From the NCBI GenBank assembly GCA_029262455.1, contig JAJCZJ010000031.1, forward strand, positions 124,001 through 188,000: a DNA stretch of 64,000 bases, in the 5' to 3' direction. This stretch comes from Deltaproteobacteria bacterium. Lineage in GTDB: Bacteria > Desulfobacterota > Binatia > HRBIN30 > CADEER01. Position 1 is the first letter of the stretch; every line of letters starts with the position of its first letter. The notes beneath the pieces are model-generated. The model had not been told where the DNA came from, made no database searches, and worked only from the letters and a program-made list of their open reading frames with translations. Both the position numbers and the translations under genes were made by a program. Of this stretch, positions 18,890 through 51,436 are shown in pieces.

Positions 18890-19036
18890 CGATAGCTTCG
18901 GTGAGGCGGAGCATCGAATGACTGCGTGCGCGCTCAGAAATCCCCGGTCGCGCCCCCCGTTGAGTTCGTCCAGCAAATCGGATTGATTGTCGATCCTAAC
19001 AGTCTACAAACTGGATTCACCAGAAGGAGCCAGCAA

Positions 19037-27795: not shown

Positions 27796-27877
27796 AGCTC
27801 CACCGGTCCTTGACACTCCCGAGTATTCCGATTGTGTCGTAATCGCGGCTAATGCCGCGGGAGATTGATTGGAACCC

Positions 27878-28315
27878 ATGGCGTCAACCCGAAGGCCCTC
27901 GACCAAAAAGCGCTCCGCATCTCGACGCAGAGCGTCGACCAAACTACGCAAAACGCTTGCGCTGGTAGCTCACGACGGCAAGAAGGCCGAGATGCTCGCG
28001 TTCGCATTGGACCATTCCAAGGTCCTCGATCGCTACGACCTGGTCGGCACCAACACGACGAGCAAACTTCTCGAGAGCAAAGGCGGACTAAAGATCCGGG
28101 CCATGCTGTCGGGTCCGCTCGGTGGCGACGCACAGATCGCGGCGATGGTCGCGCAAGGAGAAATCGAAGCGGTCTTTTTCTTTATCGATCCGCTCGGAAA
28201 GCACTCACACGACCCTGACATTCACACCCTCATGCGGATCTGCAACGTCCACGAAGTCCCGCTGGCAACAAACCCCGCAACCGCAAGCTTCGTCATTTCC
28301 GAGAAGACCCTATAA
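27878..28315 (+). CDS. mgsA: Methylglyoxal synthase
   Basis: 145 residues with an extra basic N-terminal tail of about 25 residues. The core has LALVAHDGKKAEML, LVGTNTTSKLLES (phosphate-binding GT-x-T-T), MLSGPLGGDAQIAA with the catalytic Asp, and FFIDPLGKHSHDPDIHTLMR and PLATNPATASFVI. It converts dihydroxyacetone phosphate to methylglyoxal and phosphate, a bypass of lower glycolysis. ATG 27878 is chosen over TTG 27869. It lies 16 bp before the ketosynthase gene, so it may be co-transcribed with it, though no pathway link is evident. Confidence 0.9.
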   Translation: MASTRRPSTKKRSASRRRASTKLRKTLALVAHDGKKAEMLAFALDHSKVLDRYDLVGTNTTSKLLESKGGLKIRAMLSGPLGGDAQIAAMVAQGEIEAVFFFIDPLGKHSHDPDIHTLMRICNVHEVPLATNPATASFVISEKTL

Positions 28316-28331
28316 CGGCACAACCAGGCGC

Positions 28332-29534
28332 ATGACTATCAGCTGCAGACTATCGAAGCTTGGGCTGGTCAACGCCCTGGGGACTTCACACGAAGAAGTC
28401 TCCGCCGGGCTCTTTGCAGGCAACCAGGACGGCCTGGTCAAACGAGACGACATTGTCCCAGATCGTTCGTTCTACTTGGGCGAAGTTCAAGGTCGATTGC
28501 CAGAGATTCCGGACACGCTGGTGCGTTTTCGTTGCCGCAATAATCAACTGTCATTGGCCGCTCTTCAAACGATCGAGAAGGAAGTTCGCACCGCCATCGA
28601 AGCCGTCGGCAGGCATCGCGTTGGGGTGGTGTTCGGCACCAGCACATCCGGTGTCTCCGATGCCGAAGTGGCGTTGCGCTACCAACGAGAGCGCGGCGGA
28701 CTCGCGCCCGGATTCGCTTACGACCAGCTCGAGTTCGGCGGCGGCGCCGGCTTTATCGCCGACTACCTAGACATCTGCGGGCCGACATACACCATCTCGA
28801 CAGCATGCTCGTCGGGCGCACGGGCTCTCGCATCGGCGCGGGCACTGCTCGAGCTGGATGTGTGCGACGCCGTCATCGCCGGAGCTACCGACAGCCTATG
28901 TAATCTTACGATCTTCGGCTTCTCTGCTCTGCAAGCTATCTCCGAAGAAATTACCAACCCGTGCAGCGTGAATCGCAAAGGCTTGACCCTCGGCGAAGCC
29001 TCGGCACTGTTCCTGGTCACCCGCGACGCAGGCGGGATTCAGCTCCTCGGAGTAGGCGAATCGAGTGAGGCCCACCATATGTCGGCACCCGATCCGAGCG
29101 GCGGCGGCGCCGAGACAGCAATGCGCGCTGCCCTCGAGGACGCCGGGGCCGATGCGTCGCAAATCGCATATCTGAACCTCCACGGCACTGGCACACCACT
29201 CAACGACAGCATGGAGTGCGCCGCTGTGGCACGGGTCTTCGGCAACGAACTCCCCTGCTCGTCTACAAAGCCATTGGTCGGTCATACACTCGGCGCCGCC
29301 GGCGCTACCGAAGCCGCCTTCTGTTGGCTTGCCTTACAAGCTGCGGATCTCGAGCTACCCCTCATCCCGCATCGATGGGACGGTGCACGCGATCCGGAGC
29401 TCGCACCGATCAACCTCGTCGAGTCCAGCCACAGCTCCAGCCCCAGCCCCAAGGGCGCCTCGCTCGTCGCCACCAACTCCTTCGGCTTCGGCGGCAACAA
29501 CTGTGTCCTCATCTTCGGACGGGAGACCCCGTGA
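28332..29534 (+). CDS. Beta-ketoacyl-ACP synthase (aryl polyene-type KS)
   Basis: 400 residues of FabF/KAS II fold with the full catalytic triad: Cys159 in ISTACSSGA, His284 in NLHGTGTPLND and His318 in STKPLVGHTLGAAG. The C-terminal signature SFGFGGNNCVLIF is intact. It would extend an acyl chain with malonyl-ACP, as the ApeO/ApeR ketosynthases do in aryl polyene clusters. The true start is ATG 28332; the frame is open further upstream but overlaps mgsA. The next gene encodes a second, shorter KS-like protein. Confidence 0.88.
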   Translation: MTISCRLSKLGLVNALGTSHEEVSAGLFAGNQDGLVKRDDIVPDRSFYLGEVQGRLPEIPDTLVRFRCRNNQLSLAALQTIEKEVRTAIEAVGRHRVGVVFGTSTSGVSDAEVALRYQRERGGLAPGFAYDQLEFGGGAGFIADYLDICGPTYTISTACSSGARALASARALLELDVCDAVIAGATDSLCNLTIFGFSALQAISEEITNPCSVNRKGLTLGEASALFLVTRDAGGIQLLGVGESSEAHHMSAPDPSGGGAETAMRAALEDAGADASQIAYLNLHGTGTPLNDSMECAAVARVFGNELPCSSTKPLVGHTLGAAGATEAAFCWLALQAADLELPLIPHRWDGARDPELAPINLVESSHSSSPSPKGASLVATNSFGFGGNNCVLIFGRETP

Positions 29535-29613
29535 GCGAAGCGAGGTCAGCGGCTGGCCCTCAGAAGCCTCGGCGAAGGAGAGAGCGCGAAGCGCGTACGG
29601 GAGCAAGCTCACC

Positions 29614-30339
29614 ATGCTAGGCGCTGTCGTCGTGCGGACATCGGCGTGGGCTCCGGGCATCGAGTCAGCCGCAGCCGTCCGAGCCTGGATCGAAAACCCA
29701 CAGCCCCTCGCGGCAACGGGACATCCGGACGCGAAGTTTCTCCCAGCGATGCTTCGTCGCCGCTGCACGCCGCTGACGAGAATCATGCTCACTGCCGCGC
29801 ACGAATGCTGTGACAATGCTGCGCAAGAGGTGCGCACCGTCTTTGCTTCTCGTCACGGCAGCATCAACGAATCCATCGGACTTCTCGAAGCGATCGCCGC
29901 ATCGGGTCGCCTTTCGGCGGCGACGTTCAGCCACAGCGTTCACAACGCGCAAGCAGGGCTGTTTTCCATTGCTTCCAGCAATCGCCAGGCGTCAAGTTCT
30001 ATAGCGGCGCAGCAAGACAGCTTTCCGACGGGCTTTCTCGAAGCAATGACTCATCTACAACGCGACCCAGACCGTCCGGTACTGCTGGTGATGGGCGATG
30101 TCCCCCTAGCGGAAGCGTTCGCTCCGCTCGTCGACGAACCCGCCGCCTCGTATGCTGTGGCGATGCTATTGGCGAAAAACGGCAACGGTCCGCACATTTC
30201 GCTGCGCATCGAACCCGGGGAAAAGTCGATCGCCTCCCCACCTTGGCCCGCCGCGTTCCAATTTCTGCACTGGCTCGCTTCGACAGACTCAGAGTTGTCG
30301 ATCCCCACCCCCGGCCGGATCTGGCGCTTCTCGCGCTAG
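29614..30339 (+). CDS. Ketosynthase-like partner / chain-length-factor type protein (ApeC-like)
   Basis: 241 residues, well short of a full ketosynthase (~400). It matches the N-terminal Ketoacyl-synt_2 family found in aryl polyene and flexirubin clusters: PAMLRRRCTPLTRIMLTAAHECC, VFASRHGSINESIGLLEAI, and FSHSVHNAQAGLFSIAS, where an active-site Cys would be expected and is absent. Such proteins probably pair with the KS as a chain-length factor. ATG 29614 is preceded by GGGAGC nine bases upstream. It follows the KS by 79 bp and ends 16 bp from the convergent membrane-protein gene. Confidence 0.78.
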   Translation: MLGAVVVRTSAWAPGIESAAAVRAWIENPQPLAATGHPDAKFLPAMLRRRCTPLTRIMLTAAHECCDNAAQEVRTVFASRHGSINESIGLLEAIAASGRLSAATFSHSVHNAQAGLFSIASSNRQASSSIAAQQDSFPTGFLEAMTHLQRDPDRPVLLVMGDVPLAEAFAPLVDEPAASYAVAMLLAKNGNGPHISLRIEPGEKSIASPPWPAAFQFLHWLASTDSELSIPTPGRIWRFSR

Positions 30340-30355
30340 GAAAGTTCCGCACCGC

Positions 30356-31135
30356 TCACGGCGGCGGCATCCCGAGTTCTTCGCGCTTACGGCGGATGTA
30401 CTCCATCGACAGCCGACCCATCCGGGTGTCTTCGGCAGGAAACAATCGCGACCAGATGCGATCGAACAGGTTGTTGTGGAAGTAATAGCGGAACCACCAC
30501 TTGCGAACGACGAAATCGACTGCACAGATCGCACCGATCAGGGCAAATACGATCCACCCCGTGTACGATCGCCACATCTCGACACGCCCGGTAAGAGCCA
30601 ACCACGAAATGACTACTGCGTTGACGGCAAAGAACAGGCTCCAACCAACTGTGCTCTTACGGCAGTACGGCTTAATGAAGTCGGGAGCGAACGGAACGAT
30701 GAACTTCGCGACATGCTCGACCATCGACACTGACTGCTGCAAGGTATCCAAAAACAGTTTGCACAGCATCAAGTAGATCAATGCCGGCACCAGCAGGAGG
30801 TACCGAAGATCCTCGGTGACAGCGGTCACCAGAGCGATACCGAGCATCATCAGGTGCGGAAGAGACAGCAACTGAATCGGAATTCCCATCGCACGCCGCA
30901 CCAATGCAAAGAAGATGCCGTAAACAACCAGTCCCAACGCCCCGGCACGGACCCCGGCGCGGGCAATGAGCCATTCAAAGAGAAACGGGTATGCGAATAT
31001 CCCGACGGTCAGCAACGTACCGAGCCCCACTTGAATCAGAGTCGGCTGGAAGCTGCCCGGCGCGACGACTTCAGCTCCCTGCTTCGGTTCGACGCCAGCT
31101 AACGAATCGCTCGACTCAGGCAAGCGGCTGCTCAC
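30356..31135 (-). CDS. COG4648-type inner-membrane protein of aryl polyene clusters
   Basis: 259 residues with six or seven hydrophobic segments and a charged tail (MGRLSMEYIRRKREELGMPPP). Membrane proteins of this kind recur in aryl polyene and flexirubin gene clusters. The function is not established, but a role in assembly or transport of the lipid-linked polyene is likely. Its start overlaps the end of the flavin enzyme gene by 20 bp, which puts it firmly in the same - strand operon. It is the last gene of that operon and converges with the KS-like gene. Confidence 0.68.
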   Translation of the reverse strand: MSSRLPESSDSLAGVEPKQGAEVVAPGSFQPTLIQVGLGTLLTVGIFAYPFLFEWLIARAGVRAGALGLVVYGIFFALVRRAMGIPIQLLSLPHLMMLGIALVTAVTEDLRYLLLVPALIYLMLCKLFLDTLQQSVSMVEHVAKFIVPFAPDFIKPYCRKSTVGWSLFFAVNAVVISWLALTGRVEMWRSYTGWIVFALIGAICAVDFVVRKWWFRYYFHNNLFDRIWSRLFPAEDTRMGRLSMEYIRRKREELGMPPP

Positions 31136-32675
31136 TCATGAAGGACTGCAATGGACGGTGTACGGTCGCTTCCTCCTCGCCGAGTAACTCATGGGCCCGG
31201 CAAAGAACGCGGTTAAAAATCTGCTCGGTCTTGCGCAGCACATCCCGGCGCGAGCGCGTCGTCCCAACTTGGTCGACGAAATCAATGTTCTCGAGCCCGT
31301 AGGAGAAACCTCCGACATTGGCTCGGTGATACAAGCCTCGGTCGCGCAACGAGGCCTCGACTTGGCGGAACAGCAAGGAGAAATTGCGCAATGCTTGCAG
31401 CACAAACGGTCGCATCCGTTGTTGTCGACGCAAGAAGCGCGCGTCGAGGTGTTGGTCCTGCATGTACGGCGATACCCAGAGGTTGTAATAGCAGCCGATA
31501 TCGAGGTCCCACTTCATGCGCATGAGATCGAAGCTGCCCATCCCTCCGTACAACCCGCGGTAGAGCAGCATCGCCGACTCGTGACGGAAGTGCATGAAGC
31601 CCTCATACAGATCGAGGCGCTCAGCGATCGAGTCGTCACCTTCGCCGGCAAAGTCGCGTTCGATCAGGTCACAAAGAAAGTCGTTCTCCAACGCGATAAA
31701 ATCCGAGCCGGGGCTGTAAAAGGGGTCGGCCGACGTCGCCGCCTCTCCGGTCAGACCCCAACGCTCGGTCGAAAAGAACTGCTTCGTCCCGTACGCAATC
31801 TGCGAGAAGCTCCCACAATCGACGATCTCTGCGTTGCCCAGAAGCTCTTCGATGCCACGATGCTTGCGCAGGAAGGCACGGAACCCGTCGGCTGTGCGAA
31901 CTTCTCTGCCGCGGGCAATATCTCCGACGAGGCCTACGCTGGTAACCCCGCCGCGCAGCGGAATGACCCAGAACCAATAGCCCGGATACCAGAAGTGCAG
32001 CGTCGAAAGCCGGCGCGACGTGTGCCGAACACGGCCGCGCCATTCTTCGGTCCCCAGCTGATCGACATCCGCTACGCCGCGAAAACGCGCCCACACCGAT
32101 CCAACATGGTGCTCCGATTCCGGCAACCGCAGGTCGCGCTGCTTGGCAATCACGCCGGCTCGTCCGCCGGCATCGATCAGCCAACGCGCCTCAACATCCG
32201 ACTTTTCGCCGTCGCGCTCAACGACGAAGCGGTGCTGACGACTCGGATCGAGCTCGACCGCTTCAACGCGCGCCCCTGTGTAGACATCGACACCGATGCC
32301 GGCGACCATCTCGAGCAGATCGGTTTCCAAGCGCGCGCGATCGATCTGGAATGCCGGGTGGAACGGCAAATTGATCGGCCCTATCTCCGACATCTGGGTC
32401 AACGGAGTCTCGCACTCGACGTCGTCGAAGAAATAGCGCAAGCCGTTCTTCGGCACATGGTTCTCGTACAGATAGCCACTCAACTGGTGCCGGCGAATCA
32501 AATGGTTGGAGGCAATCTCAACCAATGATTCGCCAACTTTGTAAGACCGCTCCGTACTCTTCTCAAAGAGACCGATGTCGAGCGAAGGTCTCGCACGCTT
32601 CAGTTGGCGGGCGAGCAATGAGCCCGCCATGCCGCCACCAATAACGGCAACGTCGTAGGTACGCCGCTGCAACAT
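31116..32675 (-). CDS. Flavin-dependent halogenase-like oxidoreductase
   Basis: 519 residues, the usual size of tryptophan-halogenase family enzymes. The FAD site is DVAVIGGGMAGSLLARQL at residues 8-25, followed by SYKVGESLVEIA, and residues 234-239 read WFWVIP, matching the W-x-W-x-I-P motif associated with flavin halogenases and their suppression of monooxygenation. Xanthomonadin and flexirubin clusters carry related enzymes, and xanthomonadins are brominated, so a ring-halogenating role is plausible. I did not identify the catalytic Lys with certainty. The start overlaps the ketoreductase stop (TAATG). Confidence 0.8.
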   Translation of the reverse strand: MLQRRTYDVAVIGGGMAGSLLARQLKRARPSLDIGLFEKSTERSYKVGESLVEIASNHLIRRHQLSGYLYENHVPKNGLRYFFDDVECETPLTQMSEIGPINLPFHPAFQIDRARLETDLLEMVAGIGVDVYTGARVEAVELDPSRQHRFVVERDGEKSDVEARWLIDAGGRAGVIAKQRDLRLPESEHHVGSVWARFRGVADVDQLGTEEWRGRVRHTSRRLSTLHFWYPGYWFWVIPLRGGVTSVGLVGDIARGREVRTADGFRAFLRKHRGIEELLGNAEIVDCGSFSQIAYGTKQFFSTERWGLTGEAATSADPFYSPGSDFIALENDFLCDLIERDFAGEGDDSIAERLDLYEGFMHFRHESAMLLYRGLYGGMGSFDLMRMKWDLDIGCYYNLWVSPYMQDQHLDARFLRRQQRMRPFVLQALRNFSLLFRQVEASLRDRGLYHRANVGGFSYGLENIDFVDQVGTTRSRRDVLRKTEQIFNRVLCRAHELLGEEEATVHRPLQSFMSEQPLA

Positions 32676-33430
32676 TACATCATGCCCCCGTTCACAGAGA
32701 TGGTCTCGCCGGTGATGTAAGCCGCCCCTTCGCTGAAGAGAAACGCCACCACGGCCGCAACCTCTTCAGGTTTGCCAAGACGGCGCATCGGAATCATTGC
32801 GGCCAGACCCTCGACCATCGCGCCATCGAGCATTTCGGTTTCGATCAGGCCCGGGGCCACACAGTTCACGGTAATCTTGCGCTTCGCCAGTTCTTGCGCC
32901 AGCGATTTCGCCGCCCCGATCAGGCCCGCCTTCGAGGCCGCGTAGCTGACCTGGCCGCGATTCCCGGACAAACCGGCGAGCGAGGTCATCGCGACAATCC
33001 GGCCACCGCGGCGGCTTCGGATCATCGGCATCGTCAACGGCTGGAGCACGTTATAGAACGCATCGAGGTTCGTCCGCAGGACACGGTCCCAATCCTCACC
33101 CTTGATCGACGGAAACGCCGCGTCGGCACGAATCCCCGCGTTGCAGACCACTCCGTAGTAGGCACCGTTCACCTCGATGTCCGCTGCGAGCGCCGCAGCA
33201 CTCTTATCGCGATCGGCAACGTCGAACGGAAGCAGGGTCGCCACGCGGCCACGCTCTTCGACTTCGGTAGCCACGGCTTTCGCCGCGTCCGCGTTCGACC
33301 GATAGTTGATCACGACATCGAATCCCGCATCGGCGAGCGACACACACACCGCCTTGCCGATGCCGCGGCTGCCACCAGTCACCAGAACCCGGCGCGGCGC
33401 GTCTGCGTCCACTTTGCTGCGCGGACTCAT
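32675..33430 (-). CDS. 3-oxoacyl-ACP reductase (FabG/ApeQ type)
   Basis: 251 residues of the short-chain dehydrogenase family. The cofactor loop is TGGSRGIGKAV (residues 19-29), then VVCNAGIRADAAF, and the catalytic set is Ser in VAMTSLAG, Tyr and Lys in YAASK. The end VNGGMM is typical of FabG. It reduces 3-ketoacyl-ACP with NADPH in each elongation round. It couples to the flavin enzyme gene by a 1-bp overlap and follows the dehydratase gene by 56 bp. Its placement makes it the cluster's own ketoreductase rather than the housekeeping FabG. Confidence 0.92.
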   Translation of the reverse strand: MSPRSKVDADAPRRVLVTGGSRGIGKAVCVSLADAGFDVVINYRSNADAAKAVATEVEERGRVATLLPFDVADRDKSAAALAADIEVNGAYYGVVCNAGIRADAAFPSIKGEDWDRVLRTNLDAFYNVLQPLTMPMIRSRRGGRIVAMTSLAGLSGNRGQVSYAASKAGLIGAAKSLAQELAKRKITVNCVAPGLIETEMLDGAMVEGLAAMIPMRRLGKPEEVAAVVAFLFSEGAAYITGETISVNGGMM

Positions 33431-33486
33431 TTTGGTTGTGCTCCCGTGCGCGCTGCGCGCTCCGTTGAGCTCGCTTCGCTCATCAA

Positions 33487-33927
33487 TCAGCCCTCCGGCC
33501 CATCGGCGAGAAGATAGACATTGATACGCGCGCTGGCGAGCAGCTCCTTGGTTTGGTCATCGAGAATCTCACAGGCGAACGATAGCATCTGGCTGCCGGC
33601 GTGCACACGACGGGCAGACACCCGCAACTGCTGGCCGGGGCGAAAACAATCGGCCGCCAGCTCCAGCTTGCGCGTGCCGAGCAACAGTCCCGCGCGCGGC
33701 GACTCACCTGCCGCGCGACCGACTAAGCCGCCGTGTACTGCAGCGCATTGCGCCATGTACTCGAGCCCAACCCACGCCGGCACAACGCCATGATCGTCGA
33801 GGAACAGTCGGCTGTCGGTGGGATCTGCTGTACAGGTGGTTTGTTCCGCATCGTGCTCGCACACCTCGCGCAACAACAACATCGGCCCACTGTGCGGGAC
33901 CAGATCTCCGAGTTCAGGATAGCTCAT
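33487..33927 (-). CDS. Hotdog-fold 3-hydroxyacyl-ACP dehydratase (ApeP-like)
   Basis: 146 residues. It begins LGDLVPHSGPMLLLREVCEHD, the PHSGPM-x-LL signature of ApeP-like dehydratases, and continues with PAWVGLEYMAQCAAVHGGL, the central hotdog helix carrying the catalytic acid region. It dehydrates 3-hydroxyacyl-ACP to the enoyl form, giving the conjugated polyene when no enoyl reductase acts. No enoyl reductase is present in the window. It is the first gene of the - strand sub-operon 33927-30356 and diverges from the ABC ATPase gene 151 bp away. Confidence 0.85.
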   Translation of the reverse strand: MSYPELGDLVPHSGPMLLLREVCEHDAEQTTCTADPTDSRLFLDDHGVVPAWVGLEYMAQCAAVHGGLVGRAAGESPRAGLLLGTRKLELAADCFRPGQQLRVSARRVHAGSQMLSFACEILDDQTKELLASARINVYLLADGPEG

Positions 33928-34078
33928 CGGTACAGTCGCCAGACCCTAGCAGCCGACAGCAGTGCCGGCATCCGGGGGAACTCCCTTCGCCAGATTTTCC
34001 CCGAGATTCAATAAATGTCACTTCGGTATCGCTAGTCGACTGTTAGAATTATCCGGATATCTGCCCAAAAGAGAGCTG

Positions 34079-34858
34079 ATGATCGAGATTCGCAACGTCA
34101 CCCAACACTACACCACCCGTCCCGTCCTGCGAGACGTCTCAGTGACCATTGAGCAGGGACAGCTCGTCGCGGTCATGGGTGCCAACGGCATGGGCAAAAG
34201 TACTCTGCTGGGCGTGATCGCTGGCACACTTGCACCCTTCCGCGGTGAAATAGCGATCGACGGAAAGGTCCGCCGGTCGACCCCCGAGCAGGAGCTCGCG
34301 ATCCGCAAGCGGGTCGTCTACCTACCCGACCACCCCTGGCTGCCGAGCGAACAGACTCCCAAGGAGTTTCTTCTAGCCGTCGGCCGGCTCTACGACATCG
34401 AAGAAGCGCGCCTCTTCGATCACGTCGATCGGCTCGTAGACTTGTTCCACCTAGAGGACGTCGCCAATAGTACGATCCACAGCCTCTCGAACGGCCAACG
34501 CAAGAAGACGGCAATCGCCTCGGCCCTGGTAACCGAGGCTCCCTACCTGATCCTCGACGAACCATTCACCGGCGGCCTCGATCCCTCCGGCATCATCGCC
34601 CTCAAGCACGTTCTACGAGGACTCGCCGACCGCGCAGACACGACCGTCGTCATCGCCTCCCAACTCCCCGAAATCGTCGAAGCCCTAGCCCACCGAGTTA
34701 TCGTAATGACCAACGGCAAGGTCGAGCTCGACGAAGAACTATCCAAGCTCACCGAAATCGACGGCAAACAAGTCAGCCTGAGCGAAGCCCTCGACCACAT
34801 CATCCATTCCGAATCCCTGGAACGAATTCGTCGTTACACCGAGGGCCAGTCCAGATGA
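34079..34858 (+). CDS. ABC transporter ATP-binding protein
   Basis: 259 residues with Walker A GANGMGKST, signature LSNGQRKKTAIASAL and Walker B YLILDEPFTGGLDP. The H-loop position reads VVIASQLPE, with Gln in place of the switch His, so hydrolysis may be altered. I chose ATG 34079; the frame is open to 33962. It overlaps the membrane-protein gene by 4 bp (ATGA). The pair sits on + between two halves of the aryl polyene-type operon. It could export a product or be an unrelated insertion. Confidence 0.82.
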   Translation: MIEIRNVTQHYTTRPVLRDVSVTIEQGQLVAVMGANGMGKSTLLGVIAGTLAPFRGEIAIDGKVRRSTPEQELAIRKRVVYLPDHPWLPSEQTPKEFLLAVGRLYDIEEARLFDHVDRLVDLFHLEDVANSTIHSLSNGQRKKTAIASALVTEAPYLILDEPFTGGLDPSGIIALKHVLRGLADRADTTVVIASQLPEIVEALAHRVIVMTNGKVELDEELSKLTEIDGKQVSLSEALDHIIHSESLERIRRYTEGQSR

Positions 34859-36006
34859 GACTGCTACGACGCCTACGCCCGCCAACTCCGCTGGACATCG
34901 GGGTCTCCGTAGCCGTGGTCTTCTACTGTGCAGTCTGGTTCTTCGATTTTTGGCGGGTATCCACTGACGGCTGGATCGCCGTACTGACGCGACCGAGCAA
35001 AGCGTTACTGGGACTCCAAGCGTTTCCCCTAATCGTGGTCTCGTTTCTGTACGGCTTCTTACGCGCCGGGATCGTCCATCCCTTCTTTCGAGCCGAGTAT
35101 CGGAAGTGGCTCGAGCGAACGCACTGGTCGAGGTCCTACCCACTGCCGCTCGGGCCAATCGATCCGACTGTCGCCGACGGTCTGGTCCTCGTGCTAATCA
35201 CCCTGGCCTCGACGCGGACACTCGCTCCGCCGCTACTCCCGGTAAGCATCACGATCCTGGGATACGCGGCAACGGTCATGGCAGCCTCGTTCGCAACCGG
35301 AGGACGCGCAGGCCCGTTCGCGATCGCCGTCCTATTGGGCGCCGTACCCCAGACCCAAGACCACCCGTACGTACTCATCGCAGTCTTCGCGGCGCTATAT
35401 GTAGCACTCAGGCTCGACCTCGAGGCAACGCTCAGTCGCTGGCCCTGGAGAATCTCATTCGACCCATCGTTCAAAATCGACATCGATGACGTTGGAGGGG
35501 TCACCGCCGTCTCGCCCACCACCACAAGTCAACGCCGCCTCGGCTGGCCGTACTCGCGGCTATCCCCAGCGCCGCACTCACCCGTCACGACGAGGGAAGA
35601 CAGAATCTGTCTGACCATCATCTTCGCTTGGTGGGTCACAGCAACCGGCGACGTGAGCGACATCGTCGGTCGATTCCCTCTGGCCCTCGTTGTCCTTCGA
35701 ATCGTACGACTACTCGTATCTCACCGTCCGCCGATTTCCCTTTGGGGCCGGTTGCGCACCGGGCGACTCTTGATCCCCGGATACGACTCAGCATTCATCG
35801 CCCCACTCGTTTCGGCCTGTTGTATCTTCGAGCTCCCAGCCATCGGTACTAGCTTGGGTTGGCCAACTCCAATCGCATTCGGTGTATCCGCCGGAATCGG
35901 ACTGGCGTTACTGTTCACTATCCCGCCGCGCATAGAAGACTGGACACTGTCGGGGTCGTGCAGCATCTCCAGCAGATTCGACAAAAGAGTCTACACGCAA
36001 CTCTAA
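34855..36006 (+). CDS. Multi-spanning membrane protein, presumed ABC permease
   Basis: 383 residues with about nine hydrophobic segments and no recognised family signature. It is translationally coupled (ATGA) to the ABC ATPase gene, so it is the likely membrane partner. A central hydrophilic stretch (residues 200-245, KIDIDDVGGVTAV onward) probably lies in the cytoplasm. No substrate can be assigned. It ends before a 300-bp tract holding a decayed copy of the convergent acyltransferase gene's end. Confidence 0.55.
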   Translation: MRLLRRLRPPTPLDIGVSVAVVFYCAVWFFDFWRVSTDGWIAVLTRPSKALLGLQAFPLIVVSFLYGFLRAGIVHPFFRAEYRKWLERTHWSRSYPLPLGPIDPTVADGLVLVLITLASTRTLAPPLLPVSITILGYAATVMAASFATGGRAGPFAIAVLLGAVPQTQDHPYVLIAVFAALYVALRLDLEATLSRWPWRISFDPSFKIDIDDVGGVTAVSPTTTSQRRLGWPYSRLSPAPHSPVTTREDRICLTIIFAWWVTATGDVSDIVGRFPLALVVLRIVRLLVSHRPPISLWGRLRTGRLLIPGYDSAFIAPLVSACCIFELPAIGTSLGWPTPIAFGVSAGIGLALLFTIPPRIEDWTLSGSCSISSRFDKRVYTQL

Positions 36007-36050
36007 TACCCCCTATCACGCCTGATCTTGCTGCATGCGAAGCATCCGCG

Positions 36051-36114
36051 TTCATCCGTGGCCCCCTCAACGCTCGCCTAGTAGAGGTAGAAATTGAACC
36101 ACTGCAGCGGCCAC
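36051..36114 (-). repeat. Decayed duplicate of the acyltransferase 3' end
   Basis: 64 bases here match 36317-36380, inside the end of the downstream LpxL-like gene, at 60 of 64 positions. The copy on - would encode the same QWFNFYFYW-like ending but is interrupted and has no gene around it. The intervening 200 bp (36115-36316) shows no clear similarity or gene. This looks like the remnant of a tandem duplication of an acyltransferase gene. Confidence 0.85.
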
Positions 36115-36307
36115 GAAACAGTGCAGGGACGATCCGAGAAAACCAGATCCGCTACGCGGCTCGGGCGGAGCCTCCGCCCTCCATTTATCTCGATGCACCT
36201 CCACCGAAATCAAGAACCAGCACAGCGAGCACCACTCTTAGCCTCAGCCTTTCATCTCGATCGGCGTTCACCTCATCAGCGGTTTTGCTCCGGCCATCCG
36301 CCGCGGC

Positions 36308-37276
36308 TCAATCGTGTTCATCCGTGGCCCCATCAACGCTCGCCCAGTAGAAATAGAAATTGAACCACTGCAGCGGCCACTTGCGACAATAGTCCTCGAG
36401 CGTGGCCACGTAGGCCCCCAGCAATTCCACCGCCCGCTCGCGCCGCACCTTCCGCGGAATCACCTCACCTTCGGTCAACACCCGAACAGCAGCACTGTAT
36501 CGACCGTCACCGGTACGCACACACATCGACGTCAGCAACGGGCACCCAAGAGTACACGCCAACAAATACGGACTCAGCGGAAAACGCGCCGGCCGGCCGA
36601 GAAAGTCCACCGTCTCGACCTGCTCTTTGCTACCCGGTGGAACGCGGTCCCCGAGGATACCGACGAACTCGCCGCGATCGAGACATGCCTTGATCGCAAA
36701 CCCGGTCTGCGCGCTGCCAGGATCGAGCCGCAGTACCCGCAAGCTGCTCGACGGATCGAGCCGCTCGAAAAAGGCGGTCACACGCTCGGCCTGATCGGTG
36801 AACATCAACACGTTCATCACCACACCGTGCTCGCCGGCGAGAATCCGCGGCATGTCGAAGCTACCTAGATGTGCCCCGAGCAAGATACCGCCGCGCCCCT
36901 CCTCGGCGAATCGCATGAGAAGCTCACTACCACTGTGATGAAACTCGTATGACCCGAAGCCACCTCCCCAAGCCACCATTCGATCGTAAAGATTCACCGC
37001 GAACTCATAGTTGTGGTGCAGCCCGTCAATGCGCCGCGGCGGTTGTGAAGGAGCCACACCACCTGTCCAAGCCCGTAGAGTATTCAGGTAGTCGACTGTC
37101 GAGTCGGCTGCACGCGGGTGCGTCAAGTGGAAGTATGCCGCGATCGGGTACAGCAGCAGGCGCGCCACACGCGGTCCAGCCACACGATGAAGCGTCGCCA
37201 TGAATCGCATCGCCGCCATCGAACCAACTTCGGCAAGGTTCTCCCAATGCCTCCGATCGCTCACCTCCCACTCCAT
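36308..37276 (-). CDS. LpxL/LpxM-like acyltransferase of the aryl polyene-type cluster
   Basis: 322 residues. The N terminus has HWENLAEVGS, typical of this family. The catalytic motif is H-x4-D in GAHLGSFDMPR, followed by VGILGDRVPPGS and the end QWFNFYFYW. LpxL-type enzymes acylate lipid A; relatives in aryl polyene clusters are thought to place the polyene acyl chain on its lipid anchor. The start overlaps the GT2 gene end by 16 bp, so it is the last gene of the - strand sub-operon 40884-36308. Part of its 3' end is duplicated downstream. Confidence 0.85.
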   Translation of the reverse strand: MEWEVSDRRHWENLAEVGSMAAMRFMATLHRVAGPRVARLLLYPIAAYFHLTHPRAADSTVDYLNTLRAWTGGVAPSQPPRRIDGLHHNYEFAVNLYDRMVAWGGGFGSYEFHHSGSELLMRFAEEGRGGILLGAHLGSFDMPRILAGEHGVVMNVLMFTDQAERVTAFFERLDPSSSLRVLRLDPGSAQTGFAIKACLDRGEFVGILGDRVPPGSKEQVETVDFLGRPARFPLSPYLLACTLGCPLLTSMCVRTGDGRYSAAVRVLTEGEVIPRKVRRERAVELLGAYVATLEDYCRKWPLQWFNFYFYWASVDGATDEHD

Positions 37277-38004
37277 GCACGCACCAGGAGACCCGGCATC
37301 CGCGGCACGCTACGGGCCAGCAACCGGGTGTACAAGCGCGCCATCCGCAACGTGTCACGCAACCCGTCGAAGTGGGACAAGCCGCCAGGCAGGTAGCGAA
37401 CGCGGGTCGGCAAGTTGCGCACCGGCACGCCGGCCCAATACAGAGTGACAGCCAACCCCGGTTCGAACTCCATCCGGTCGCCGAGTGATTCCTTCTCCAA
37501 CAGGGCTAACGTCGACGCCAGTGGAACCGCTCTATATCCGCAAAGCGGATCGTCGATCGCGAACGAGTACGTGCAAAGCCAGACGATCGCGCGCGACACT
37601 TGCCGTGCATACAGACGCGCACGATCAACGCTATCGTCAAAGATCGGCTTTCCGAGAATCAGCGCTTCCGGCTCGGCGCGAATCGCCTCAATGAATCGCG
37701 GCAAGTCCGCAAGCTCGTGCTGCCCGTCGGCGTCGAGATGAATCACGTGTGTCGCGCCGCCCTCGCAGGCAAGACGGAACCCGCAGCGCAACGCCGCACC
37801 CTTGCCCCCATTCGGGTCGACGCGATGAACTTCGACACCCGCATTCGATTCCGCCAGCTGCTCGAGAACGACCCGCGTCGCAGCGCCACTTCCATCGTCG
37901 ACGATCAGACACGGCGCAATTCCGTCGATCTGATCGACGATCGCAGTGATCGTATCACCGTGGTCGAAGATCGGGATCAAGATCCACGGTCGGAGTTCAG
38001 TCAC
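37261..38004 (-). CDS. GT2-family glycosyltransferase (dolichol-phosphate mannosyltransferase-like)
   Basis: 247 residues. The GT-A nucleotide-binding start is ILIPIFDHGDTITAIVDQI, then CLIVDDGS, and the metal site HLDADGQHELADLP (D-x-D). A late VRYLPGGLSHFD matches the small cytoplasmic GT2 proteins common in aryl polyene clusters. It would add a sugar from an NDP or polyprenyl donor to the cluster product or its lipid anchor. It overlaps both neighbours (4 bp upstream, 16 bp downstream), so it is tightly co-expressed. Confidence 0.87.
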   Translation of the reverse strand: MTELRPWILIPIFDHGDTITAIVDQIDGIAPCLIVDDGSGAATRVVLEQLAESNAGVEVHRVDPNGGKGAALRCGFRLACEGGATHVIHLDADGQHELADLPRFIEAIRAEPEALILGKPIFDDSVDRARLYARQVSRAIVWLCTYSFAIDDPLCGYRAVPLASTLALLEKESLGDRMEFEPGLAVTLYWAGVPVRNLPTRVRYLPGGLSHFDGLRDTLRMARLYTRLLARSVPRMPGLLVRAWSGR

Positions 38005-39767
38005 TCTGGAGCCTCGCCGACATTCAGCCGGCCGGACGACAGCTCGACAGAACCACGCATGAGGCGAAAGCGGACCCGACCGCGAGCCTCATCCACTTCC
38101 GCGAAGATCTCGAAACGATTCCCCGGCAACAACGGCTCCTTGAACTTGAGCGCCTCCACCGATCGGATCGCCCTACCTACGAATCCCAATCGCGCCACTG
38201 CGGCAACCACCCATCGCACTTGAACAACCCCAGCGACGACCGGAGCACCGTCGAAGTGCCCTTCAAAGTAAGCGAGTCGATCCGGCACGACGCACCGCAA
38301 CCGTAGTGAAGTTTCGCTCAGCGATTCCTCTTCGACGATCGGATCGACGAGCGGCCGATCTTCATCGGTCGAAAACAGCGCATGCAGGGCCGCCGCCGGC
38401 AACTTCCCCTGCGCATTGCGCGGTAGGCTGTCGACAAAACGCCAAGTCTTGGGGAGCAGAACCCGATCAAAAAATGGACTCAACTTCGCCGCCAGCTCGC
38501 GCCCGAGATCGCCACGTCCTAGCTCGGACAGGAAGTGTTGCCCCACCGGAGCCAACACGACCGCGGCGCAAACGCGCTGCTCGGCGCCGCGGCGCACCGC
38601 AATCAGCGCGACATCCTCGACCGTCGGCAAACGCGCCAACTCTGCTTCCATGTCCGGTAAAGACAGCCTCTTGGCCCCTATCTTGACGGTGCGATCGACC
38701 CGGCCGCGCAGCCGAAACGACCCGTCGGTCGCAAACTCCACCCGATCGCCCATGACGAAACGGGTCAGGCCACCGTCCGGCTCACCCACACTGGCGAACG
38801 GTGATCGCACAACGAGTGTGCCGGCCGCGTCTGCACTGACATCAACGTTCGGAAACGGTCTCCACGGCACGTCTCCACCAGCCGGTCGCTGCCGCCACGC
38901 GACGCCGCCAGTTTCGGTCGAGCCAAAGACCTCAAAAGCCGCCTCGCCCACTTGCTCAGCCAGACCCACAGCCGCTTGCTCATCGAGCGGCGCGCCGGAA
39001 GTGAACACTGCGCCCACTCCAGTACCGCGCAGCACTTCCGTCTCGACCATCATTTTTACTTGCACGGGCGATGATACCAGAACCGATGTGCGCTCGCGCA
39101 ATCGTGCCGCAACTTCTTCGCCATGCAGCAAGGTACGCGTTGCGAACTCCCTCCCAGCAGCTAGCGGCCACAGGACCCGAAAGAGACTCCCGTAAATGTG
39201 ATGCGGGGCAACCGTGGCAACGACGCGCGCATCACCGACCGCAGCGCCAAAGACGCGCTCGAGGACGACCACTTCATCATCCAAGTGACGCAATCGTTTG
39301 GCCACACCCTTATTGTCGCCACTGCTTCCCGAGGTATAGAACTCAACGAAGGGAGCATCGCGGTCGAGCTCGCTAAACCCCAACGGCAAATCTTCGGCGA
39401 CTTCGACAGGCACGGCGAGATCGAGATGCTGAAGCCGGTTGTCGGCCGGTTGCCAATCGATGTCGATCAGACATCCGTCAGCCGTCTCCGAGAGCCGCTC
39501 GAGTGTGCCTCGTCCTCCGTTGGGCGGAAGCACCGCAACGCCACCGGCATGAGCGACGGCAAAGAGGCCAACCGCAAGCGATAGGGCGTCCTCGGAAAAC
39601 ACCAGCCACCGGCTTCCGCCGGTGGCTCGAATCTGATCGCGCAGCGCCGCAACCCTGGCGCCGAACTCGGACCACCGAACGACCGTGTCCGCGTCAAAAG
39701 CCACGACCGCCCGATCGTCGTGACCGTTCGCCAGCAGCGATCCGAGCCGGACGAGTTGCCGTTGCAT
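38001..39767 (-). CDS. Acyl-AMP ligase fused to an ApeI-type dehydratase
   Basis: 588 residues. Residues 1-455 are an ANL-family adenylating enzyme: P-loop FYTSGSSGDNKGVAK, FEVFGSTETGGVAWR, GRVDRTVKIGAKRLS and terminal Lys in LPRNAQGKL. Residues 470-588 are a hotdog dehydratase (LAYFEGHFDGAPVVAGVVQ, the H-F-x-G-x-P-V-x-x-G pattern of FabA/FabZ-like proteins). In aryl polyene clusters the ligase (ApeH) loads an aromatic acid on the ACP and ApeI dehydrates; here they are one chain. The ACP gene lies 24 bp upstream, which supports ACP loading. Confidence 0.88.
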   Translation of the reverse strand: MQRQLVRLGSLLANGHDDRAVVAFDADTVVRWSEFGARVAALRDQIRATGGSRWLVFSEDALSLAVGLFAVAHAGGVAVLPPNGGRGTLERLSETADGCLIDIDWQPADNRLQHLDLAVPVEVAEDLPLGFSELDRDAPFVEFYTSGSSGDNKGVAKRLRHLDDEVVVLERVFGAAVGDARVVATVAPHHIYGSLFRVLWPLAAGREFATRTLLHGEEVAARLRERTSVLVSSPVQVKMMVETEVLRGTGVGAVFTSGAPLDEQAAVGLAEQVGEAAFEVFGSTETGGVAWRQRPAGGDVPWRPFPNVDVSADAAGTLVVRSPFASVGEPDGGLTRFVMGDRVEFATDGSFRLRGRVDRTVKIGAKRLSLPDMEAELARLPTVEDVALIAVRRGAEQRVCAAVVLAPVGQHFLSELGRGDLGRELAAKLSPFFDRVLLPKTWRFVDSLPRNAQGKLPAAALHALFSTDEDRPLVDPIVEEESLSETSLRLRCVVPDRLAYFEGHFDGAPVVAGVVQVRWVVAAVARLGFVGRAIRSVEALKFKEPLLPGNRFEIFAEVDEARGRVRFRLMRGSVELSSGRLNVGEAPE

Positions 39768-39791
39768 ACCGCTACCGAGAATCGTGGGCTG

Positions 39792-40061
39792 CTATTTGAC
39801 TCGGTGCTCTCGCACAAAATCCGCGAGGTTGCGCACGGAGGCAAAGATCACCTGATTGCGATCGGGGTCGTCCTCGATTTTGACGCCATAGCTCTCTTCC
39901 AGAACCACCGCTAACTCCAGAGCGTCGATCGAATCCAACCCGAGACCCTCGACGAACAGCGGGGCGTCGGTTTCGATCTCGGCTGGCTCGATATCCTCCA
40001 GCGCAAGCGCGTCCACGATCAATGATTTCAGGTCGATCTCGATAGTATCAGACATCTGCAT
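39792..40061 (-). CDS. Acyl carrier protein
   Basis: 89 residues, acidic. The phosphopantetheine site is Ser in GLGLDSIDALELAVVLEE (the D-S-I/L motif, at about residue 43). It carries the growing chain for the ketosynthase, reductase and dehydratases of the cluster. The start lies inside the end of the PlsC-like gene (14-bp overlap); ATG 40061 or ATG 40055 could be used. Only one ACP is visible, while known aryl polyene clusters usually have two, so a second may lie outside the window. Confidence 0.92.
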   Translation of the reverse strand: MQMSDTIEIDLKSLIVDALALEDIEPAEIETDAPLFVEGLGLDSIDALELAVVLEESYGVKIEDDPDRNQVIFASVRNLADFVREHRVK

Positions 40062-40884
40062 AGCCTAGCTCTCGAAGGAAATATTCCCGCATCACCTGAT
40101 TGACTTTGCGGGCGGCAAGACCGCGGCTCTCCGTTCCATCAACACATTCTTTCGCGGAGATCGGCTCGCCAACGGTAAACGACATTCTCGGTGTTCCCTC
40201 CGGTATGTCGTACCAGGCCCGCCCCTTCAACCCGAAGGGGGGGGTGCAACGAATCACGATCGGCAGCATGTCGCATCCACTGGCCAGAGCAATCCGCGCC
40301 GCGCCGCGATGGAACGGATGCAGGGCCGCTTCCGGCGAGCGCGTCCCTTCCGGAAAAATCAATACCCGCCGGCCCGCAGCCAGACGCCGCGCACTCTCTT
40401 CGATCACCCGTCGTGGATCGTCATTGCTGAGATGACCACCCTCGACTATCGCCCGACCGATAATCGGCTGACCGATCCAGCTGACCTCGGCGATGTTGTC
40501 CACCTGCTCCATCATCGAGACCAAAAACGTCGCATCGAGGGCCGTCGGGTGATTCGCCACCATTAGCAGCGGGCCCGGCTGCAGCAGCCTATCGATTCCG
40601 TAGAAACGCACATCAATCACGCGCAGAACGCCCACGACTCGACGCACGACCCGCGCCGCCCGGTGCAGCGCCCACTGCGTCAAGTCACCGCGCGATTCCG
40701 ACCGTCGCAGCCTGGACGCAATCGGCACGACAACCCAGGTCGCCACTGCGATCGTGGCTCCAAACGTGAAGTAGACCAGCCCAACCCGCACCAGCCGAAA
40801 CAGACGTAGCGCCAATCGAAGCGGCGAAACAACGCAAGCACGGCCCTCCAGCCCGCTTGCCCGGGTGGTTTCCTTCGCGTTCAC
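40048..40884 (-). CDS. PlsC-like 1-acylglycerol-3-phosphate acyltransferase
   Basis: 278 residues with one or two N-terminal membrane segments (VGLVYFTFGATIAVATWVV). The acyltransferase motif is NHPTALDATF (H-x4-D), followed by LIFPEGTRSPEAALHPF, the second conserved block that binds the phosphate. Members of this family in aryl polyene clusters are believed to build the lipid anchor. It is the first gene of the - strand sub-operon. The intergenic region upstream (40885-41082) should hold the promoter. Confidence 0.87.
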   Translation of the reverse strand: MNAKETTRASGLEGRACVVSPLRLALRLFRLVRVGLVYFTFGATIAVATWVVVPIASRLRRSESRGDLTQWALHRAARVVRRVVGVLRVIDVRFYGIDRLLQPGPLLMVANHPTALDATFLVSMMEQVDNIAEVSWIGQPIIGRAIVEGGHLSNDDPRRVIEESARRLAAGRRVLIFPEGTRSPEAALHPFHRGAARIALASGCDMLPIVIRCTPPFGLKGRAWYDIPEGTPRMSFTVGEPISAKECVDGTESRGLAARKVNQVMREYFLRELGYADV

Positions 40885-45120: not shown

Positions 45121-47058
45121 TTAGTTGACTGGGAGCGACGATTTCCTGGTCAGCTGCCAGTCCCCATCTTGCCAGACAACAGAGTTCTCCATCCGAATCT
45201 CAATATCCACTCTCTCGCCAGTGCTACGATCGGCAAATCGATCCCTCCGTCGATACGATACGGCGAAGATCGTCGGCTCGACTTGTCGTAAGTCGAAGTC
45301 GAAGAAGTCGATCTGAAGGTCCGAAGCGTTCGCGAAATAGGTCTCGAGGCCCTGCCGTTGTCGGGTGGTGAGGCCTCCTCGGATTCGAACGATCGCCTCG
45401 AAATCGTTTTCCTCCAGCGCGGCGCGGTATCTCTCTAGAACGTTCATGACTTGGTCGGCCTGAGAGACCTCCTCGGCTGACGCGGCTGCGACGAGCAATC
45501 GCGGCAACCAGGATTTGACAATGTGCGGTGACTGATCGAGCAGATGTCGTGGGGCCTTGGCCTGCGGTTCCGCCCCCTCCGTCTTCTCCATCTCGGCAGC
45601 GTCGTCGATCCCCTCGCTTTGCAGAAGAAGCCGGTAGGCGTCGATCGCTAGTTCTTGGTTCTCACTTCTGTTGCTCTCGGCGATCGCCGAGAGCTCCGAA
45701 TTCGACGCACCGATTTCCAGCTTGCCGAGAATATCGAGGACGAGCTTCTTCTGTAGCTGGAAGAACTCAGCCGGGTTCCCTTCGACACTGGTGGCTCCAC
45801 GAATCATCCCGGTGGGAACGTCGACGACCCGGGCGTCAATGCGAATCGTTTCGCCAACGACTACGAATGAGCCACTGATGAGCGTTGCCGCACCGAGCGA
45901 CCGAGCGACATGGATCCCGACGGTTCCCGCTTCCTCGACCGCCTCGGGCGAGTACACCTCTACCGCCTCGACTCTCGTGATCTCGGTGGCGAAGGCCGTT
46001 TGTAGAGCGGTCCGGAACCAATCGTGGTCGCTATCGTTCCGCCGCTCGTTGCGGAAGGTGCTGACAGCGATGGCGTTGGCTCGCAGTTCCTTCGGGGCGA
46101 TTGTGGGCGAAACTAGCGGTGCCAAGGAGGTGGGTCGCGTGCCCAAGAGCTGCGATTCGACCGCGGCGAACACCAGGTCGGTCCCCTCCATTCTCGAGTA
46201 CGGGTGCTGCCGTCCCTCCGTGAGGCGGGGTACCGTTCGCGCCACGTAGCCGAAAAGATCGGCGAGCGACAACAGGCCGTCGCTGTTCGAATCTGCAGCA
46301 CCCCGCAGACCTTCGAGGAGGGCGTAGGTAAACACGCCCTGCTCCAGCTCGGAATCTTCCTGTGATTGCTCGCCGGGTTTGGCGGCTGCCAGCACGTAAA
46401 GCCCTTCCGCGGCCGAGATGTCGCGCGCGAGATCGACCGCCGACGGCACGGCACGCTTGTCGATTTCGAAGGCTCCCGAGTAGCAGGTGTCGAGGAGCAG
46501 GACCACGCGCCCGACGTTCTGACGCAGGACGAGGATCACTTCGTTGAAGTCTGACATCCGAAGACCAGTCGTGACGAGGTTCTCGGGCGTCGCGGAGTAC
46601 GGAAGAAAGTAGTAGGTCCCAGTTGCACCGTCGCGCACACCATGGCCGGCCATGAAGATAGCCACCACGTCCTCTGGCCCCGCCTGCCCCAAGAAGCTCT
46701 GCATTTCCTGAAGAACGCTCTCCCGAGTTACACCGTCGTTCGTAAGCACACGCGTATGGACGTCGGCGTATATTCGTTGGTGCACACTTTGGCCGAAGGC
46801 TTTTGCGATCTCCTGCGCATCTACATCCGCGTAGCGAAGCTCCAGCCGCCGATCCTCATAGTCACTGATCCCAACCGACAAGAGCCATAACGTAGGACGC
46901 CCCTCCCTTGCCTGCGCGGCCTTCGAACCAGGTGCAAATACCAATGGATCCAACGAAGTATCGTCACCGGCCAGCCCAGTAAGAAAAAGCGCAACAAGTC
47001 CGGCGCCAATGAGAATCGCGCAGCCAGAGATGATCCTTGAGCGAGATCGAGAGTGCAT
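45121..47058 (-). CDS. Caspase-family (C14) protein with FlgO-like and SnoaL-like domains
   Basis: 645 residues. An N-terminal hydrophobic segment (GCAILIGAGLVALFLTGLAG) acts as a signal or anchor. Residues 55-290 are a caspase-like domain with the dyad His139 in FMAGHGVRD and Cys192 in LLLDTCYSGAF, both intact. Residues 335-440 resemble FlgO/TolB N-terminal domains (TLISGSFVVVGETIRIDARVVD). The last ~110 residues look like a SnoaL/DUF4440 fold. Bacterial caspase homologues cut after Arg/Lys or Asp and can act in stress or cell death. Located in the envelope by its signal. I chose ATG 47058. Confidence 0.78.
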   Translation of the reverse strand: MHSRSRSRIISGCAILIGAGLVALFLTGLAGDDTSLDPLVFAPGSKAAQAREGRPTLWLLSVGISDYEDRRLELRYADVDAQEIAKAFGQSVHQRIYADVHTRVLTNDGVTRESVLQEMQSFLGQAGPEDVVAIFMAGHGVRDGATGTYYFLPYSATPENLVTTGLRMSDFNEVILVLRQNVGRVVLLLDTCYSGAFEIDKRAVPSAVDLARDISAAEGLYVLAAAKPGEQSQEDSELEQGVFTYALLEGLRGAADSNSDGLLSLADLFGYVARTVPRLTEGRQHPYSRMEGTDLVFAAVESQLLGTRPTSLAPLVSPTIAPKELRANAIAVSTFRNERRNDSDHDWFRTALQTAFATEITRVEAVEVYSPEAVEEAGTVGIHVARSLGAATLISGSFVVVGETIRIDARVVDVPTGMIRGATSVEGNPAEFFQLQKKLVLDILGKLEIGASNSELSAIAESNRSENQELAIDAYRLLLQSEGIDDAAEMEKTEGAEPQAKAPRHLLDQSPHIVKSWLPRLLVAAASAEEVSQADQVMNVLERYRAALEENDFEAIVRIRGGLTTRQRQGLETYFANASDLQIDFFDFDLRQVEPTIFAVSYRRRDRFADRSTGERVDIEIRMENSVVWQDGDWQLTRKSSLPVN

Positions 47059-47295
47059 AAGAACCGCAGCGTAAGATGATAGCGCAGGATGAATCCCCAG
47101 TTGCAACCCAGGTAGGGAAGGGCGTTGACTCGCTCGGATTTGGTCAGCCGGATCTCTCCCGCCGGCGAAGAGCTCGTCATGTCCTCACACAAACCGCACA
47201 CAGCGGCTTGCTTCGAGCGTTGGGGCGACGGAGCAGGCAATCGATCCTGCCGAAAGCTTACACCCTCGACCCTTCTCTCAGTCGGGAGAGTCGGT

Positions 47296-51240: not shown

Positions 51241-51436
51241 GGGGGATTCCCTTCTCTCGCGAATACCCGGTTGCCGCAAGGGCCTCCCTCTGTTCGTAGA
51301 CTAGACTCGGTGTGCTCGGCGTGGCATAGGCCTGAATACGATGTCACCGCGGCAGCGAAAAGTGACGATCCACCGGAGTATGGTGACCGGCCGTCGTCTA
51401 GCGGAGAGCATCCCTTGTTACCGAAGGGGAGGTGGG

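Follow-up and report, generated by a model that had tools for sequence, protein, structure and literature searches.

A dispersed aryl polyene-type gene cluster with a halogenase-like flavoenzyme in a Binatia bacterium

Aryl polyenes (APEs) are yellow, membrane-bound protective pigments that are widespread among bacteria. A stretch of 64,000 nucleotides from contig JAJCZJ010000031.1 of a Deltaproteobacteria bacterium (assembly GCA_029262455.1, class Binatia), here called the window, carries at positions 28332-40884 a set of genes that resembles an APE cluster, is divided by two genes on the opposite strand, and appears to lack an exporter. The question is whether this locus encodes an APE pathway at all and, if so, whether it is an exporter-less type, a decaying remnant, or a cluster in pieces. 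Judged from its sequence, the locus is very probably a functional-looking APE pathway that is dispersed along one contig. As a genuine APE cluster in pieces it is ordinary in kind, and its combination of parts is modestly unusual.

Ketosynthase phylogeny and gene content

Related loci were collected by a scan of genome contigs, of which the best 80 of 595 stretches were used; they form no census. Genomes and stretches are numbered with G and L, respectively. For the ketosynthase (KS), a tree of 73 sequences was built, hand-picked from 148 extracted sequences to cover the groups (the named row L108 is not included). The APE, xanthomonadin and flexirubin group names had been set ahead of tree building, on the basis of gene order and organism. 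The window KS forms one clade (starred value of 100) with six relatives from the same class and with L049, a stretch from the metagenome-assembled genome (MAG) of bacterium isolate Bpl_16. This clade nests in a starred set of 34 rows (value of 97) containing all 23 APE-labelled rows, and seven FabF-type rows, six second KSs and six flexirubin-type KSs fall outside this set. In the same tree, with its group labels taken from gene order, the window KS is neither among the xanthomonadin-type KS clade nor with the flexirubin-type KSs of Bacteroidota.

Structure matches agree with this placement. The best solved match of the KS is 6qsp_A with 316 bits, compared with 154 bits for the best FabF-type chain. 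The chain-length-factor-like partner (CLF) best matches 6qsp_B, the other chain of the same PDB entry, and the ApeP-like dehydratase best matches 6qsr_B. We take 6qsp to be the APE KS:CLF complex and 6qsr to be the APE dehydratase complex. The residues Cys159, His284, Lys313 and His318 of the KS are invariant in a six-row alignment. In addition to an APE-clade KS with its CLF, the locus encodes a ketoreductase (KR), ApeI- and ApeP-type dehydratases, an AMP ligase and a dedicated acyl carrier protein (ACP), and a second block on the same contig supplies an MMPL exporter, a LolA-like carrier and a DUF3261 protein. The ApeI-like match (PF22818) reaches 27.7 bits, just below the cut-off of 28.5.

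An initial annotation, made from the sequence, had proposed an APE-type cluster and had named a grouping of KS, ligase and dehydratase with ordinary fatty acid enzymes, together with the lack of any matching APE cluster, as the outcome that would undo this proposal. The KS sits in the APE clade instead, and the proposal is borne out by the tree, the 6qsp and 6qsr matches and the family models. That ordinary fatty-acid genes were misread as a pigment cluster is accordingly highly improbable: the KR does score above the cut-off of a FabG model, but the KS tree and the structure matches point to APE, and the genome holds a separate FabF-type KS on contig C86, which groups with FabF in the tree.

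Gene calls across 28332-40884 combined open reading frames (ORFs) with Pfam and NCBIfam profile matches, and every gene named in the initial annotation is present there. The membrane protein next to the CLF owes its name COG4648 to that annotation and to the excerpted text of PMC8253772. It has no Pfam or NCBIfam match; its syntenic homologues in three same-genus genomes are 59-65% identical, and it is 27-28% identical to the hypothetical gene preceding the ligase in the Pseudoalteromonas and E. coli clusters.

Export genes, insertion and breakpoints

When the MMPL protein of a class relative was used as query against the window's own genome, a 47% match appeared at C31:189043-191118, 1 kb beyond the window end and on the same contig. 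It belongs to a second block of tightly packed genes on one strand, examined as stretch L143 of contig C31 (window coordinate = L143 position + 61000). This block starts with an aromatic amino acid ammonia-lyase, 21.9 kb from the PlsC-like gene, and continues with the LolA-like carrier, the MMPL exporter, the DUF3261 protein and a small PEMT-type methyltransferase; MMPL, LolA-like and methyltransferase genes lie about 23-27 kb downstream of PlsC. The closest solved chains of the ammonia-lyase carry the names histidine ammonia-lyase and tyrosine aminomutase, followed by histidine- and phenylalanine-lyases. The initial annotation had listed exporter, carrier and methyltransferase as not visible. 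Within 28332-40884 none of the three is indeed visible, but all occur on the contig past the window. With its export and starter genes some 22 kb downstream, the cluster is fragmented and not exporter-less.

In the class relatives L031 and L032, the lyase match starts 0.3-0.4 kb past the PlsC match; next come thioesterase-like, LolA-like and MMPL genes, with no DUF3261 or PEMT match seen behind PlsC. Because lyase, LolA-like and MMPL genes stand so close behind PlsC there, the PlsC-side operon and the parts of the second block were probably once adjacent, even though in G017 some 4 kb separate CLF from the COG4648-like gene. In the same-genus genome G002, the two contigs concerned break off at the point where PlsC would adjoin the lyase; this fits such adjacency and is no proof of it. 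Behind DUF3261, a PEMT match was seen in G001, and not in G002.

The operon itself is interrupted between ApeP and LpxL by genes for an ABC ATPase and a membrane protein, which overlap by 4 bases and run on the opposite strand. In L030, L031, L032 and L049 the operon keeps the same order and the junction is uninterrupted; in G002 the order reads COG4648-halogenase-KR-ApeP-LpxL-GT2-ligase-ACP-PlsC, and no gene separates ApeP from LpxL. The inserted membrane protein was matched in only one of 58 class genomes, the window's own; none of the 57 others, cluster-bearing ones included, has a match, and none was found among the plasmids searched. Matches of the ABC ATPase are at most 37% in the other genomes listed (29 searched). 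Modelled with AlphaFold, the membrane protein reaches a mean pLDDT of 40.7, which is insufficient for a fold search. A partial lpxL duplicate of 68 bp (36047-36114, minus strand), corresponding to the 3' end of the gene, is located between lpxL and the insert; it is 93% identical to 36313-36380, contains an internal stop and is a rearrangement scar. As the membrane protein is found in no other class genome and the same-genus operon is uninterrupted, the pair is an insertion private to this lineage, placed between LpxL and ApeP, and no part of the pathway.

The initial annotation had rightly noted that the ABC pair splits the operon, and had further suggested that it may replace the exporter, so that the locus would represent a new APE subtype in which the ABC pair takes the place of the MMPL/LolA route. 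The position of two overlapping genes inside the operon speaks for this version. With MMPL, LolA-like and DUF3261 genes on the same contig, a membrane protein private to one genome and unbroken junctions in four related stretches, however, the ABC pair need not replace an exporter, and we rejected it as a candidate; such a subtype is very unlikely.

Other breakpoints differ between genomes. In G001 the ApeP-LpxL junction is broken in another manner: the contig runs 8.4 kb past LpxL without ApeP, which lies on another contig. In G001 and G002 the KS-CLF pair and the COG4648 operon are on separate contigs, the pair being flanked as in the window by genes for a methylglyoxal-synthase-like protein (MGS), an 896-aa protein, RsmE and a DAHP synthase. 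In G003 and the window, KS-CLF converges on COG4648-halogenase-KR-ApeP. In G020 a LolA-like gene and MMPL stand beside the ACP gene.

These differing breakpoints among congeners, and the partial lpxL duplication beside the insert, could also mean that the split cluster is decaying and its product no longer made. The parts that were not found favour this as well, and together with two further points they weigh against a functional pathway. No ApeR-type KS was found in the genome, the best match being the FabF-type KS (42%). The initial annotation had named MMPL, LolA, a methyltransferase and a second ACP as genes to look for nearby; the first three turned up, the methyltransferase being of PEMT type, but next to the first ACP of the window, L029 and L030 no second one (ApeF) was found, with no genome-wide search made, and L031, L032 and L049 do have one. 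A close thioesterase (ApeK) was found neither in the cluster nor in four genus genomes, and the best thioesterase match in the own genome (35%) is on another contig. In the excerpted text of PMC8253772, full assembly in E. coli seems to need every ape gene "except for perhaps apeR", which suggests that the lack of ApeR is tolerable. According to the same excerpts, deletion of apeF still yielded pigmented intermediates, and the thioesterase is counted as needed for full assembly in E. coli; release lacks an explanation when the cluster has no thioesterase, which speaks against a working pathway. The KS tree, moreover, is a quick tree without bootstraps, in which several of the inner forks have support in the 80s, and in G020 no ApeP, ligase or PlsC match occurs on the 17.7-kb contig of the cluster. 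Against decay stand the window cluster ORFs, which are open over the full homologue length, the intact active-site motifs of KS and ACP, and the retention of cluster homologues within the genus at 36-87% identity. We consider decay unlikely and favour the dispersed, functional-looking APE pathway.

Features of the two gene blocks in window coordinates
Feature	Position	Strand	Evidence or remark
APE-type ketosynthase (KS, ApeO-like)	28332-29534	+	NF006618 above cut-off; KS tree; 6qsp_A
Chain-length-factor-like partner (CLF)	about 29611-30339	+	PF13723; 6qsp_B; start codon not fixed
COG4648-like membrane protein (ApeG-like)	30356-31135	-	position and weak similarity; no family match
Flavin-dependent halogenase-like enzyme, xanthomonadin-cluster type	31116-32675	-	PF04820, CmlS-like; halogenase tree; motifs
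Ketoreductase (KR, ApeQ-like)	32675-33430	-	FabG-family models; synteny
ApeP-like hotdog dehydratase	33487-33927	-	PF22817; 6qsr_B
ABC ATPase	34079-34858	+	inserted; outside conserved cluster
Membrane protein, orphan	34855-36006	+	inserted; outside conserved cluster
LpxL-like acyltransferase	36308-37276	-	PF03279; synteny
GT2 glycosyltransferase	37261-38004	-	PF00535; synteny
AMP ligase (ApeH-like) fused to ApeI-like dehydratase	38001-39767	-	PF00501 and PF13193 over cut-off; PF22818 below cut-off
Acyl carrier protein (ACP)	39792-40061	-	NF006617 above cut-off; GLDSID site
PlsC-like acyltransferase (ApeD-like)	40048-40884	-	PF01553
Aromatic amino acid ammonia-lyase	62765-64321 (window ends 64000)	+	PF00221
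LolA-like carrier	64321-65013, past window end	+	PF19574/PF03548
MMPL exporter	65016-67361, past window end	+	PF03176
DUF3261 protein	about 67358-67870, past window end	+	PF11659
PEMT-type methyltransferase (small)	about 67816-68403, past window end	+	PF04191

Upstream of the KS, the MGS gene (27869-28315) stops 16 bases before the KS start. It directly precedes KS in all four genus genomes examined, so KS-CLF may be cotranscribed with it. Between the two blocks lie genes for a caspase-domain protein (45121-47106) and a 1327-aa lactonase/CARDB protein (47296-51279). Elsewhere in the window, at 18926-19978, a glutaredoxin, a weak iron-sulphur-assembly match and a rhodanese domain form a single ORF.

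The flavoenzyme and the fused ligase

The best solved-structure match of the halogenase-like flavoenzyme is CmlS. In a quick tree of 44 rows, from which the duplicate copies L150-L155 were excluded, the enzyme, its class relatives and L049 belong to a starred set of 12 (value of 100), which also includes enzymes encoded near KS-CLF in xanthomonadin-type clusters, namely those of Luteimonas, Variovorax, a Pseudomonadales MAG and L066. FAD enzymes found in clusters of the Pseudomonas, Shewanella and Cupriavidus types lie apart from this set, with long branches meeting at the split. The subfamily (at least 55% identity) occurs in the same seven genomes as the KS subfamily, of nine searched, and no relative was found among the viral contigs searched. 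A second halogenase-like flavoenzyme is encoded on contig C20 of the same genome (L159 7697-8638); in the tree it stands among FAD enzymes of Azonexus, Chromatiaceae and related stretches.

A catalytic lysine and a WxWxIP motif are characteristic of flavin-dependent halogenases, and the window enzyme has both. Every aligned row displayed carries both, including the other FAD-enzyme group from APE clusters, so that the motifs do not discriminate and were rejected as proof of halogenation. The chance that the flavoenzyme is instead an oxidoreductase which modifies the polyene or the ring without halide chemistry comes close to even. Besides the shared motifs, it is in favour of such an enzyme that E. 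coli and several other APE stretches have no match to this flavoenzyme, and the core pathway is thus independent of it; nor does a halogenase label prove a halogenated product. On the other side, its nearest homologues outside its own subfamily (37-38% identical) are encoded near KS-CLF in Luteimonas and the Pseudomonadales MAG. In addition, halogenase genes accompany the KS-CLF pair ORF16-ORF17 in most of the selected clusters shown in PMC3691225, except those of L. enzymogenes and Xylella, and the excerpts of that paper give the Xanthomonas pigments as bearing 0-2 bromines. A halogenated product is thus plausible but unproven.

The arcuflavin genes include the halogenase arcA, and the arcuflavin clusters are physically unlinked, as described in PMC3949708. 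Given halogenases near KS-CLF and unlinked loci in this literature, the halogenase and the splitting seen here are known themes. The less usual part is the pairing of a xanthomonadin-type halogenase homologue with an APE-type KS and an ammonia-lyase.

The fusion of ligase and dehydratase, which the initial annotation had called unusual, proved common. Of 82 loci (L049-L130), the 47 in which the match extended through to the end of the ligase portion were scored. Fused single ORFs with a tail of 111-123 aa occur in 24 of these 47 loci; four more (L073, L093, L098 and L107) have odd tails and bring the loci scored as fused to 28, and in 19 the ligase ORF stops before the dehydratase. Records of Caballeronia, Cupriavidus, Burkholderia and Acinetobacter are examples in which the match is continuous. 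The fusion was therefore rejected as a novelty.

Comparison, proposed pathway and significance

With the E. coli and Xenorhabdus ape clusters, as excerpted from PMC8253772, the window shares KS-CLF, KR, two hotdog dehydratases, AMP ligase, ACP and COG4648-like protein, the PlsC/LpxL/GT2 group, MMPL, LolA-like and DUF3261 proteins, and the KS clade. It differs in that no ApeR-type KS or second ACP beside the first was found, and in having a halogenase-like enzyme of another group, an ammonia-lyase, a fused ligase and separate blocks. The xanthomonadin and arcuflavin clusters, in the excerpts of PMC3691225 and PMC3949708, share the adjacent KS-CLF and the nearby halogenase-like flavoenzyme, and unlinked loci are described for Azoarcus too (PMC3949708). 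In contrast to these, the window KS lies outside the xanthomonadin-type clade, and an ammonia-lyase is present rather than a clear XanB2-type chorismatase, for which the own genome has one weak match (35.5 bits against a cut-off of 325) on another contig. L049 shares gene order and halogenase subfamily (KS 59%, halogenase 57%), but has an ApeR-like KS and a second ACP, and lacks the ABC insertion. Its 11.3-kb stretch ends inside PlsC, and the export block lies outside view.

The KS subfamily (at least 54%) occurs in 7 of 58 class genomes, namely those of the window genus, G017, G020 and G057. G020 also contains a second KS/KS/ACP/ligase group beside its APE genes (L043 13844-17507); one KS of this group was included in the tree and falls outside the APE set. 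Among the open-licence papers listed in literature searches, none names this APE variant in its title or abstract opening. Tentatively, and with more doubt than confidence, we propose that the APE subfamily of these seven genomes and Bpl_16 takes its starter from the ammonia-lyase and that its aryl polyene lipids are halogenated. The window genus would then use an assembly line that lacks ApeR, second ACP and thioesterase, its cluster spreading out along the chromosome with different breakpoints in sister species and yet intact.

The proposed working builds on what was observed of the genes, namely their identities, their phylogeny and synteny and the existence of a second block, and each biochemical step is taken by analogy from the APE literature, with gene roles and export model following the excerpts of PMC8253772. 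The ammonia-lyase would provide a cinnamate- or coumarate-type aryl acid, which the ligase-dehydratase protein would activate and load onto the ACP. KS-CLF would extend the bound aryl acid iteratively, KR and the two hotdog dehydratases would turn the chain into a polyene, and the flavoenzyme might halogenate the aryl ring. The LpxL-, PlsC- and GT2-type enzymes would attach the chain to a lipid, and MMPL, LolA-like carrier and DUF3261 protein would transfer the product to the outer membrane, where the pigment could act as a shield against light and oxidants.

The locus illustrates that the edge of a window or contig can make a pigment cluster seem exporter-less. Its congeneric genomes with different breakpoints suit the study of how a cluster breaks up while staying intact, and the locus also offers a candidate halogenase subfamily that is paired with an APE-type rather than a xanthomonadin-type ketosynthase.

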